A DNA stretch of 64,000 nucleotides, taken from assembly GCA_001600495.1 (NCBI GenBank), contig BCKE01000011.1:227150-291149 (forward strand), read 5' to 3'. The notes under the pieces were generated by a model that saw only the letters and a program-made list of their open reading frames with translations, was not told the DNA's origin and ran no database searches. The position numbers were made by a program, and so were the translations under genes. Numbering within the stretch: position 1 is the first letter of the stretch; each line of letters begins with the position of its first letter. This document shows, in pieces, positions 58,757 through 64,000 of this stretch. The stretch is from Pilasporangium apinafurcum. Taxonomy: Eukaryota > Oomycota > Peronosporomycetes > Pythiales > Pythiaceae.

Positions 58757-58992
58757 CACCACTTCCTCCCCAAGCTCCACGATCATCCAAGTTGTCAAGT
58801 TTACAAACTTCGACCAATCAATTTTTATCTTTCAGATTTTCGATCAATCATCGTACGCCATCGTTACAAAATCTTCCAATCCGACTTTCGTCCAATCATC
58901 GTCTTTGAAGCCCAGTAAATGTTACATCAAGTGCCAAGTTGACGTAGCGACCATCACTCTCTATGCAATTTCAACGTTGTTGAAACGGAAAC

Positions 58993-61400
58993 ATGAAGCG
59001 GCAAGTGGTGATTCCCTACGTTCATGGCACGAGTGCAGATGCAGACGAGCACCAGCTTAATGATAGAGACACGAAGGCTGAGCGCATCGACACAAGCAAT
59101 ACGCCGCTGGTCGTGCGGCCACACGTAGTCTGTCGGTTCTGGCTGGAGAAATTTTTAGTACTCATCGACGGTGCGCAGATCTATGCAATCATGTGGCAGC
59201 TATCTCAACCGTGGCCCTGGCCTGCACGGTGGCTGCGCTGGAGTCGATGGACAAACGCATTCAATGGTGATGTCTTCAGCTTTCGATCAACTGGTGCAGC
59301 GATGGGAGCGACAAACCAATCGTTTTCGCTTTGGGGGGAGATGGAAGGGTACTGGGTATATGCATTGCTGTGGGGGTTGCTGCCATATACAACCTTGGCT
59401 GCGCTTCAAATCGCGCGGTATCGATGGAAAAAGCACGGTATACAGGATCTTCTTGATCGGAAAGCGAAGTGGGAGAACGTACTCTTGCAAGTATTCCAGA
59501 TTCTTTATCTACCTATTGGTCTCGCTGTGCTTCGGCTCGTCAATTGCAACGCGAACGGCGAAGTCTCGGTAGATCCAACCACAATGGGGAAATGCAGAGG
59601 CATACGCCATTCAGTAGCAGTTGCGCTAATAACTGGTGCATTAGGTGGCACGTTTCTAGTTGGATTCCCGTGGTTGTTGCATAGACTCATCCATCGATAT
59701 CTTGTTCATTCAGATGTGGAACATCATGAACGGTTTCTTCAAGCTAAAGAACTTGAGTTCATGTTGAATACATCGGAAACCTATCTGGGCCTGTATATGC
59801 CGCAATATGCATCTTTTCAACGTCATTCGGTGGGAACTCCGGTGCATCTATTGCTGTTGAAGCTATCGATGCTGGTGATATTTTCCTTGCTACGATCGCT
59901 AGCTCCATACAAAACGAATCAAGGACTTCAAGGAACACTTTTCTTTGTGTTACTATCAATTTACGCTGTTCGATGTACTTGGTATAAACCTTATCGGATG
60001 GTGACCAGTTCACGGTTAGCTTTAATTGTAGACTGGATGCTTGTCACAAATGGGATTTTTGGTGAGTCGGCGTGTATCAACCAATCTTTGAATGACATCA
60101 ATCTCACTCATTCGTGTTATGTAGTTTTACTGTGCGCAAATGGTGTTCGTAGTGCGTTAACAGTGTCTACAACACTGACATCATCATTAACGTTCGTTAA
60201 TGTGTGCTTCTTGATTGTGCTCGGGTTATCGTTTCTTCAAAACATACAGCAGTGGAAGTTTGGATCCCAAAATGCACTTGCGACAGCACTGCGTTGGCCG
60301 AGCAATGAACACATGGACGCAATCGTATTATATAGATCTACGCTAGCGATGTGGGTGGATACAATCAAGGATGCGAAGAAAGTTGTTGTGCGGTCGTTGC
60401 TCGTCCCTCCTTGTATGCGGAATTACCAAGATTTAGGGAGGATACTGTACCGATTGGAGGTTTGTCACGGAGAAGCAATAGCAGAAGAGCATTTACTATC
60501 AGTAAGTTTGCACTATTGATGCATGGCACTGTTATCCATACTATTTGAACATATGTGTACCTCATAGGATCAGTTTTACGAACTCCTACGCCAAGTACAC
60601 GAGTTATATGTGGAAGCTCTTGGATCTAATCCTTTCCATCGCCTCGGATTTCCTGAATTTCCAGAAAATGATTTGTCAGATCTTGGTGGTGTCCTTAAAC
60701 GTCGAAAAGAGCGTCAATTACTGGCTCCATCGAGTAGACAGCGCGTACTGATGAAGTTGGATATTGCGCGAAGTTGGTGGGCATCAACGGTGTCTAAAGA
60801 TGTAGGGCCAAAACGTGACACTGGCTCTTTTCGAGCACTTCTGGAAAGCAGCACACACCACTATATTTCAACTTACTTATCTTTTGACGATTGGGAAGAA
60901 GTGAATGTTTTACTGGAGCTTCAACGTCTGAATTCAGTAGACGAAAATGTTATTTCAGTTCAAGTAGAACGGTGGAGTCCAACCGGAATGTTGATTCAAG
61001 GTGTGCTTGATCAAAATGAACAAACCAATACTGAGGAGATGCAGCTTATTGCGTCTCTTAATGACCTCCATCGACTTGGTGTCCAAATGCGCGTTGTGCA
61101 TTGCGAATATCCGCACGTAAATGCTGCTATTCTCACCGCGATCGCAAACCTCCACCACGAACCTCCTTCATTAGAAGCTTCTTTTCACCACAGTAGCTCT
61201 GGTACAGCCATTAGTTCAGAACTGGGGCTGGCAAATAGCAAACATGCCGAGCTGCAGGAACTCATATCATTGACAGATGACTCCACTAGCTTCAAGTACG
61301 TTTTGGACAAATTCACTTTGTAACTCGCTCACTTAAACACAGACAAGATGGGGTACCAAGAGAACATCGCTCACGTGCATGTATCGAATGCATTTGAATC
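58993..61400 (+). CDS. Large polytopic membrane protein, unrecognised family
   Basis: Exon 1 58993-60501 and exon 2 from 60568; reading to the TAA at 61321-61323 gives 754 residues. Exon 1 has about eight to ten membrane helices (for example WVYALLWGLLPYTTLAALQI, VAVALITGALGGTFLVGFPW, LSMLVIFSLLRSLAPY, FVNVCFLIVLGLSFL). Exon 2 encodes a soluble, largely helical C-terminal domain. A canonical donor (GTACGT at 61298) inside the last codons could splice to an acceptor near 61345, replacing the short ending with one reaching about 61400. I do not recognise the family; similar polytopic proteins of unknown function occur in oomycetes. Topology suggests a transporter or channel-like role, which is inference only. 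Confidence 0.65.
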
Positions 61401-61852
61401 GACATGCAACACCAGTCCAAATGTCGCAGCTTTGGAATTGTTGCATTGTGCAGTGAAATCGGAATCTACCAATACTAAGAATATGCCGAGCCTTGGGCGA
61501 GAGATGTAAAGATAGAGATGATTGGGCTACGAGCTTCACTATTATTCCAAATTCAGCGGTTCGACATGAATCCATGACGGTGGTCTTGTCGCAGTACATA
61601 TTGTTATAAATGCGGTCAGCGATGATAAACACGATTGATCATGAAAGTCTCTTTCATTGTCGTTTGGAGTATGCTATCAGTCACAGTGTCGACATTTGCT
61701 GTAGCTACGTCTAAAATTGCCTGTGCAAAATTTGCTTGCAGTACCATACTCATAATGTACGTAAAATAGTTGGCAAACACGACCACGAACTCACTGGGGA
61801 AGGTTTTCACGAATACCACAGCAACGAGCGATAGTCCAAACGGTGTTTTCAT
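61333..61852 (-). CDS. Doubtful minus-strand open frames (hypothetical)
   Basis: Two overlapping minus-strand frames (61852-61616 and 61632-61333) read as plausible but unrecognised protein: a hydrophobic stretch VVVFANYFTYIMSMVL in the first, then DSCRTAEFGIIVKLV in the second. They could be joined by an intron, but no pair of splice sites is convincing. They may equally be remnants of a decayed gene. Confidence 0.2.
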
Positions 61853-62515
61853 AGTGGGATCATACTTTTCAGGAAGCGCGTTTCAAGTGCGTTGGTGTCT
61901 TTGATATGAGGGTATTTTTAATGCTATGTGGTCTTCCTAACCACTTTGGTGTGAGTGGCACTGTTTCACTGTGGTCTTTGCTACTCTGTTTCATGGTCGA
62001 AAGCTCTTTTGATCACCAAGTGGAGACTGTAGAATTGCTTGATACGGCACGAAATGACGAATGACCAGGACGAATCAATGAACATAGCCATAAAACCCCT
62101 CTCATGTAACTTGAGCACTGAGAACAAATTTCTGCAGGAAGATACGGGTATCCACTTCTGGGTAAGAATGGAAGAATGTACATCAATGTTAAACACCTAT
62201 ACTGGCTGCATGCAATGTCGGAATTTTTCATACGTGGATGATTGCATCACATACAGTCTCAATTGCGACCATGCTCGCTGACTAAATTCATTTTCGACAG
62301 AGATGATACAAGAGTTTGGCATGAATGACTGGGCTCATGTTACCGAATTCAGATTTCTACCTATATTTTACATTTTGGTCTCAAGATATTTAACCTTTAT
62401 TCCCCACATCATTGTACCATGCGTGGTACAAATGGGAAAATAGTTACACTCATCCGTTTTCGGAATCATAACAGTGAGGACTTTTATCACCTCAGTTTTG
62501 ACTTCGAGCGCCACT
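61853..62515. other. Region with no supported gene, downstream of Fanzor relic
   Basis: About 660 A/T-rich bases lying downstream (minus strand) of the Fanzor relic. In TnpB/Fanzor systems the guide RNA commonly maps near the end of the gene and the element's edge, so a structured RNA might lie here, but I see no obvious repeat or boundary. Short open frames have no support. Confidence 0.3.
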
Positions 62516-63888
62516 TCATCCTTTACCCCTCGTGAACTCCTCGAGTCTCCTCTTTTTCTTCACTTGGTCGATAAATAGTCTCAAAATGTTTATTGCGGTG
62601 TTGATGTCACAATCCCACAATGTGCGCTGGCATTCACTATTTTTGCAGTGTCGCACATTATAAAGACCTTTACCGCCAATTTCTTCGTCAAGCACATATT
62701 CTTTCATCTTCTTGTGACAAGCACAATACAGGTTGCTCGTCCTGAACTCGTCCACATCAACAACACGACAACTGAAACCAATTTTCTTCCTCAGAGTCGT
62801 TGTGGGAACAGCAATGTTGCCTTTAACTGAGCTTGTGAAGCTTGCATCTCCATACGCGATAACGATTCGTTTATCGCCACCTGTAAGGTTCTTGACTACC
62901 TTCTCTTACATCTGTTGTCGACGAATGTAGGTCGACCATCGTAGCCTCTTCATCCTCCTTGATGAATACACGTCAAGAAGACGATCCAAATACACGAGAC
63001 AAAATCTCATCCGTTTCAAATAGGAGGCAAGGTCTGGAACTTTTGCCGAAGGAACGTTTTCATTGAAGGTTTTGATGTCAGACTCAGCATAAATCCACTC
63101 TTTGGTCAACTTTGTTCGTCTGTGGTAGCCACACTCTCTGTACAAACGACCCTTCGACCAGTGGATGACTTCATGTTTCACGTTCTCTCCTTTCGGCTTT
63201 TGCAGCGTAGCCATGCTTTCCTCTTTGTAGACAATAGCAGTGATGATCTTCTTTCTTCTCGGGTCTAAACCGATAATCCGGTCTTCAAGAGAAAACGCCT
63301 CTTTTTGCTCTCTCTCGTGGGAAGCTTTGGACGGAAGATTGTCACAGTAACTGACATACCGTCGGTCGAGATGAAATGCTCAAACTCCTTTCGCTGGACT
63401 TTGGTCACAAGACCTATATTGAAGTACGTGCGCTATAACTCAACTTTGTCGGCGTAAAGCTCAACAGGGTCACCCAAAGCCTTAGCAAGTTCCTTCAAGA
63501 CGGTGGTGTTGATTTTGATGAAAATGGGGTTGAAGTGTTTCTGTGGAAGCAGCGACCAGACTCGGCAACTCTCCATTCCATCATCCACATGAGCTTGTAT
63601 GTCTATCAGCATTGTGTGGAGAAAGGGCATGTAACATTCCGAAGAGCTCTTCAAGTTGAGTGGCAGCGATCCGATCTCGTTTCTCACTCTATTCGATAAT
63701 TCTTGCATCCAAACAATCTCTGCAGTAGGGATGGAGTATTTCTTGAGCCTGGAGTACGCGGGCATCAGGTTGAATAAGCTATGCTGAGTCTGGGTGCTTG
63801 CACGGACTAGCAATGAAACAGCACTCTTGATTATCTTGTCTTAGTGCTTTTCAAAATAGTCACTGTCGCGAACAAGAGTTGCAAGCAT
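62516..63888 (-). pseudogene. Decayed Fanzor (eukaryotic TnpB-like RNA-guided nuclease)
   Basis: Minus-strand sequence from about 63888 to 62516 encodes a Fanzor-type protein broken by in-frame stops (TAA at 63841-63843, TAG at 63433-63435, TAA at 62906-62908) and one frameshift in a GA-repeat tract near 63318-63330. Recognisable parts, in order: SLLPQKHFNPIFIKINTTVL; RuvC-I IIGLDPRRKKIITAIVY (catalytic Asp at 63263-63265); IAYGDASFTSSVKGN with the following VDVDEFRTSNLYCACHKK, and CKNSECQRTLWDCDINTAIN, which holds the zinc-finger Cys pairs and the final RuvC-III Asp. The end at TGA 62518-62516 is intact. The catalytic acidic residues remain recognisable, so the inactivation is by interruption. 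The 5' end may continue beyond the window. Confidence 0.8.
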
Positions 63889-64000
63889 AGTGTGAGAAGG
63901 TAGGTTCCAGAAGCGCACATTTGGTCAGAACACTATTAACGGTTCAAAAAAAGATAGACCTCTGGACCATCAAGTTAAGTCAGTAGAAGGAATGCTTAGT

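Follow-up and report, generated by a model that had tools for sequence, protein, structure and literature searches.

Fanzor proteins and TnpB are nucleases that carry out guided cutting beside a target motif (PMC3627910, PMC10432273, PMC10711439). For SpuFz1 of Spizellomyces punctatus, the TAM is given as CATA (PMC10432273). Yoon and colleagues sought Fanzor1 in IS607 transposons in 2023 and, in the account given there, reported none (PMC10711439). A report of a Fanzor1–IS607 pairing was likewise not found in the literature searched, which was mostly open-access and covered at the level of titles. The route by which Fanzor1 departed from an IS607 ancestor and came to be scattered among unrelated transposons is considered here with a repeat family of Pilasporangium apinafurcum that is termed family A.

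Several described systems resemble this family. Spu-1/SpuFz1 of Spizellomyces punctatus, like family A, is a Fanzor1-only element with no transposase inside, with a hairpin/TIR region behind the stop codon and with a RuvC domain alignable by profile. It differs in its TA duplications and 33-bp TIRs (PMC3627910), whereas the tips of family A are palindromic and shared with IS607-like elements. The viral SfAV/HVav elements, likened here by description, are also Fanzor1-only, with 4-bp TTAN duplications, short TIRs and an unknown superfamily; their description in PMC3627910 reports no IS607 link, which sets them apart. CMe-1A of Cyanidioschyzon merolae is similar in that a single small genome contains ~150 diverged copies of Fanzor, but it is described as unclassified and without TIRs (PMC3627910), whereas family A has defined tips. 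Pythium PUl elements bring Fanzor1 into a stramenopile host, with a mariner transposase and TA duplications of their own (PMC3627910). Finally, Fanzor2 in eukaryotic IS607-like elements is, in this genome, bounded by the same left tip as family A and by a GGTTAA right tip. In contrast to those elements, family A encodes Fanzor1, is without a recombinase, and ends in long palindromes.

The window, meaning the whole 64,000-nucleotide stretch of contig BCKE01000011.1 that was analysed, contains, at 62390–64000 on the minus strand, the right-hand portion of a Fanzor1 element of family A. Its limits are taken from the end-to-end alignment of five copies, and its DNA is 87.4–90.7% identical to other family A copies in 19 alignments of more than 900 bp. 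The copy starts with its right tip at 62390 and reaches the window end, with the left tip lying beyond the window; the alignments of three relatives already begin at base 2 of the window in reverse complement, and 405 bases past the window end read N (L001). The original prediction had placed a Fanzor relic at 62516–63888, where the protein fragments do lie, but the element is longer, running from 62390 to the window end. With the frames of relatives, tblastn matches 62522–63885 in frames −1 and −2 at 77–84% identity, and it matches 0 of 20 base shuffles of 62389–64000.

The fragments are all on the minus strand. The C-terminal one (62516–62905), recognized through PF07282, guided_TnpB, and alignment A1 (a profile of 15 relatives’ frames), holds RuvC-II/III and the zinc ribbon, with DEFRTS, the C–C pairs, and WDCDINTAIN. 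The middle one (62906–63379), with RuvC-I (GLDP), ends at an in-frame stop and is identified by A1 and by tblastn at 84% identity with P0001, a frame of 404 residues open in a relative (L014) and comprising C-terminal residues only. Fragments of the N-terminal side at 63433–63840 and 63265–63432 (63265–63840 in all) are read in the other frame with a stop between them, as identified by tblastn with P0001 and the L011 frame. A hairpin-rich 3′ region at 62400–62515, recognized in the fold of this copy, is a candidate guide-RNA scaffold together with the right-end hairpin. The right tip, TTAACCTTTATTCCCC (62390–62405 read on the plus strand), is an exact match (C11:289539–289554) to a 16-mer common to IS607-like left tips.

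Read in relatives’ frames by tblastn, the copy is broken by in-frame stops at three places (after EKH, VEL, and QM) and by one frame change, exactly the damage that had been predicted; the minus-strand GLDP of RuvC-I, DEFRTS, cysteine pairs, and WDCDINTAIN named with it are all present. In alignment A1, the first zinc-ribbon cysteine has become Tyr and the RD of the Fanzor motif has become CD, and RuvC-I reads DPR where relatives have GLDPG. The C-terminal fragment scores 21.7 bits against PF07282 (cut-off 26.3) and 21 bits against guided_TnpB (cut-off 100). Introns were rejected as the source of the broken frame, since relatives read through the same places. Chance resemblance to Fanzor was rejected by the shuffle result and by the match of the A1 profile to Spizellomyces Fanzor1. 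The copy is the dead 3′ part of a Fanzor1 gene and is ordinary decayed DNA. Another mobile element had been expected beside it, but the stretch tested, 60600–62388, is without another copy and has only two weak matches of 68–72% on the same contig. Two long plus-strand frames at 58984–60519 and 60568–61323 (511 and 251 codons) have no Pfam match at E 1.

From its sequence, family A is Fanzor1, because of a profile match, a motif fit, and the alignment of a glutamate. Among 177,635 PDB sequences, the A1 profile has a single match, to Spizellomyces Fanzor1 (E 2.2e-5), and finds no TnpB at E 1, which makes the predicted Fanzor relic specifically a Fanzor1. Single-sequence PDB searches with family A sequences found no Fanzor. 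A different nuclease family was rejected, as the matches of those searches are at E 0.15 or weaker and the profile decided for Fanzor1. Relatives carry GLDPG at RuvC-I and DEFRTS/DEYKTS with the alternative RuvC-II Glu. In the alignment with 8gkh (Spizellomyces Fanzor1), the Glu of DEFRTS falls on that of LDEYKTS, which by our own count from the length of the Fanzor part should be E541. E541 is named catalytic in Spizellomyces Fanzor1 (PMC10432273, PMC11423790). The published Fanzor/TnpB motif, D-X(125,275)-[TS][TS]-x-x-C4-X(5,50)-RD (PMC3627910), is present in P0001 as D148, X174, TS, cysteines 327/330 and 354/359, and RD at 366. P0001 also reaches 26.6 bits against PF07282, just above the cut-off of 26.3. 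Against guided_TnpB, its 404 C-terminal residues score 26.1 bits (cut-off 100), compared with 128 and 110 bits for the Fanzor2/TnpB-like frames L031 and L032; the clear full-length match that marks Fanzor2 is thus not seen in P0001.

The suggested search of the genome for copies yields numerous relatives: a 32-nt 3′ motif of family A, with up to 3 mismatches, occurs at 199 places, and its reversed control at 0. With the C-terminal fragment as query against the 36.47-Mb assembly, the best 150 of 494 candidates were scored, and 3 of these 150 have open frames of more than 500 residues, the next longest having 493. The frame on C13 has 735 residues at a locus (L027) that contains 1,589 N. Those on C6 and C4 (5,983 and 1,602 residues) are too long for Fanzor and are therefore probably gaps. 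The assembly has gaps within repeats. The longest low-N Fanzor frame in 20 family A loci has 404 residues, and the whole protein is estimated at ~650. The expectation of intact relatives elsewhere is borne out by other families, in which Fanzor1 and Fanzor2 frames are open; of family A, no copy among the 150 scored matches and the 20 loci was demonstrated to be intact, the C13, C6, and C4 frames being set aside. Singleton changes comprise 95 synonymous, 209 nonsynonymous, and 16 stop, and changes common to at least 4 copies comprise 32, 61, and 1. The expectation is 28% synonymous, 69% nonsynonymous, and 4% stop, so the codon classes of family A are near neutral.

Examination of the flanks for element ends and a structured region, also suggested originally, found hairpin ends and the hairpin-rich 3′ region. 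End-to-end alignment of L015 with L011, L014, L016, and L017 gives an element of ~2.53 kb at 90–91% identity, with other loci partial, and both ends are palindromes of 60–70 nt that form long hairpins. Left junctions (n = 26) contain TTAA in 24 cases, with a preceding T in 22; the TTAA adjoins CC in nearly all, and TA is present in all but one. Right junctions (n = 35, two further right ends not being anchored) have GG followed by T in 24 cases and C in 11; the TA after it is invariant (35 of 35), and the next base is A in 30 cases and a purine in 31. Among the 12 copies with both ends, paired by position, 3 have a base other than A at the fourth junction position of one or both ends; of these, C61 (TTAT/TTAT) and L023 (TTAG/TTAG) match and L016 does not. 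The two matching 4-bp junctions fit a duplication of 4 bp more readily than a crossover of 2 bp, and both remain unproven because no empty insertion site was found among the loci examined. A plain 4-bp TTAA duplication as the sole model was rejected, since right base 1 is C in 11 of 35, and it stays as a rival. At L023 (C15:572400–580400), the left and right junctions share nine bases, TTAGACTAT, partly inside a diverged left tip.

In the 20 loci, no long unrelated frame that could be a transposase was found inside the element. Family A copies there have no serine recombinase TnpA gene of their own, the mark of IS607, and a family A copy is for that reason not classed as an IS607-like element. 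Serine recombinases are found in other elements of the genome. PF00239 has three matches, each upstream of a Fanzor2-type gene in elements other than family A, and one of these recombinases reaches 55 bits (E 6.8e-15) against the IS607 transposase model, whose cut-off is 110. With this recombinase as query, the best 150 of 243 candidates were scored, many of which start at residue 36–37, and none was demonstrated to be intact. PF07282 was searched in the same way, with the best 150 of 852 candidates scored above the cut-off, and Fanzor2/TnpB-like frames are open at L031 (C135; 691 codons, 0 N), L032 (C12; 648, 4 N), and L035 (C32; 724, 20 N).

The tips connect these elements with family A. In the recombinase-plus-Fanzor2 elements L083 and L084, left homology begins at the 16-mer given above for the window copy (TTCACC in L084), and the right tips of L083, L084, L085, and L092 end in GGTTAA. 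The left tip of family A is identical to that of the IS607-like L092 at 20 of 20 nt, with 16–20 nt shared across elements; the right tips agree at 11 of 12 nt by eye, and beyond ~20 nt the ends differ. The exact 16-mer occurs at 181 places and its reversed control at 0. Among the 100 listed of these places, 13 have a recombinase match 126–779 bp downstream on the same strand, compared with 0 upstream on the same strand, 0 downstream and 2 upstream on the opposite strand, and ~0.2 expected by chance. IS607-like serine-recombinase elements with the family A left tip carry Fanzor2 or a second Fanzor1 family. At L038 (C1:875952–876252), an IS607-like left tip lies 160 bp from a family A left tip, head to head.

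Because the left tip is theirs and the right tip nearly so, an IS607-like recombinase acting in trans is the likely mover of family A. The reading that we favor, if only slightly, is that the window copy derives from a Fanzor1-only element, now decayed, that encoded a guided nuclease when alive and was moved as a satellite of such a recombinase. A living family A element would have made an RNA-guided nuclease, with the guide scaffold at the 3′ tip of the element and the guide read into the right-hand flank. The nuclease would cut element-lacking sites next to a target motif, and repair from an element-bearing copy would restore or spread the element. Mobilization in trans by the IS607-like recombinase would make family A its satellite.

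The main rival is that a piggyBac-type (DDE) transposase moves all TTAA-CCTTT-tipped elements, with recombinase, Fanzor2, and Fanzor1 as passengers, which we consider unlikely. TTAA-CCYT tips are typical of piggyBac, and TTAA stands in 24 of the 26 left junctions, nearly always next to CC. The paired TTAT/TTAT and TTAG/TTAG junctions point the same way. The genome has three piggyBac transposase matches (DDE_Tnp_1_7), all over the cut-off, and a 37-nt piece that is 86% like the right-end hairpin (E 3.7e-6) follows the L029 piggyBac frame at a distance of ~370 bp. However, no left tip is found within 1.5 kb upstream of that frame, no piggyBac gene was seen inside an element with these tips at the two of three loci examined, and the C before TAA at 11 of 35 right ends is unexpected for a 4-bp TTAA duplication. 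A 12-nt left-end-like match by the L029 hairpin (E 0.5) hints at the landing of a small derivative and may be chance. At L029:3412–3470, the right-end hairpin of family A is present in degenerate form.

It is improbable that the tip was merely borrowed through recombination between unrelated decayed elements, in which case it would be uninformative on the mover. The chimeras L090 and L091 do combine an IS607 tip, Fanzor2 remnants, and Fanzor1, but in each of the 26 left ends examined, family A carries the tip precisely at its boundary, and its right tip nearly repeats it. The tips of family A are common to IS607-like elements, and we know of no mariner that has them. A Tc1/mariner-type element with TA duplication would account for the TA in 35 of 35 right junctions and all but one left junction, and the Fanzor1-bearing PUl elements of Pythium are described as mariner-type with TA duplications (PMC3627910), yet with such tips this origin is quite improbable. 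A Helitron2-like element would explain a hairpin at each end, and Fanzor1 in a Chlamydomonas Helitron2 is published (PMC3627910), but the right hairpin extends to the tip itself, the tips are mutual inverted repeats, and insertion is at TTTAA-purine rather than after TTTT, so this origin is very improbable. Harbinger has 6 transposase matches in the genome, and none of their loci matches the tips below E 0.04.

A satellite that encodes a guided nuclease would carry its guide scaffold in the 3′ hairpin region. In the window copy, 62400–62515 folds at −39.7 kcal/mol, a value taken with no shuffle control, and the 3′ region has no Rfam match. The pairing of the right hairpin is kept although its sequence varies most (0.18–0.19 versus 0.05–0.16 differences per site elsewhere). 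In the palindrome, 24 cells are changed on both sides compared with 9.5 in shuffles (0 of 500 reach this), and 7 pairs are changed on both sides compared with at most 3 when the register is slid; pair types show no excess (26 versus 26.3 in shuffles). These pairing counts (A2) cover 32 relatives, 5 of 37 right ends including the window copy being left out, and kinship and conversion within the palindrome can both raise them. Wobble in the right palindrome is weakly asymmetric at 32 versus 15 cells, or 12 versus 10 distinct changes with one position dominant, with 11 of 37 right ends outside the palindrome register; a figure of 104 versus 16 is biased by structure prediction on the same strand. 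At the left palindrome, 0 of 26 ends fitted the register. Two small stems upstream of the right palindrome overlap the relatives’ stop codon and are kept, but they covary no more than shuffles do (94 of 500 score as high). The guide-RNA scaffolds of Fanzor1 are reported to include TIRs and target duplications (PMC10711439), and by analogy the end layout of family A fits such TIR-containing scaffolds.

The second Fanzor1 family, Fanzor1-C, is linked to remnants of the IS607 transposase. L090 and L091 each begin with the tip and go on with a recombinase remnant lacking its N-terminus, remnants of both Fanzor2 ends, and only the 3′ half of Fanzor1-C, from RuvC to zinc finger. L091 is 91% identical to L094 (tip ATAACC) and 85% identical to L090 over 1.7 kb, with different flanks; the composite, alike in different flanks, therefore moved as a unit. 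Its right tip is unlike that of IS607-like elements. Among the best 150 of 243 recombinase matches, 57 have Fanzor1-C (113 matches) 398–584 bp downstream on the same strand, compared with 0 upstream on that strand, 2 on the opposite strand, and 0.36 by chance. Fanzor2 (76 matches examined) lies downstream of 12 and upstream of 2 of these 150, and none of them has both. These 57 loci probably all go back to a single composite.

Alone, Fanzor1-C finds no Fanzor in a single-sequence PDB search, where it has a chance match to a serine recombinase at E 0.25, and nothing in Pfam. Its likeness to two other frames points to Fanzor1: residues 29–150 are 54% identical to L095, an open 681-codon frame (C59:248700–252600), and it is 21% identical to P0001 (E 7e-6). 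L095 itself matches the Fanzor1 structures of Spizellomyces (E 2.5e-9) and Guillardia (E 3.6e-5), and its examined flanks contain no IS607-like tip.

The family A copy itself looks like ordinary dead DNA, and what looks new is the chassis. We suggest tentatively, and short of calling it probable, that Fanzor1 here rides a chassis of IS607 type, in family A as satellites and in Fanzor1-C as composites, with Fanzor1 and Fanzor2 sharing a recombinase, a target motif, and a cutting motif. If true, this would be the evolutionary intermediate that the 2023 survey sought. The tips shared by Fanzor1, Fanzor2, and IS607 recombinase in hundreds of copies make the step away from the IS607 ancestor testable, as well as a joint evolution of nuclease, cutting motif, and recombinase. 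Alternatively, the composites may have arisen when IS607 elements already in decay captured Fanzor1 late, which would be less informative on origins. A further Fanzor1-type frame outside family A, with 676 codons, is open at L096 (C122:20600–24300) and has a weak PF07282 match of 16.8 bits.
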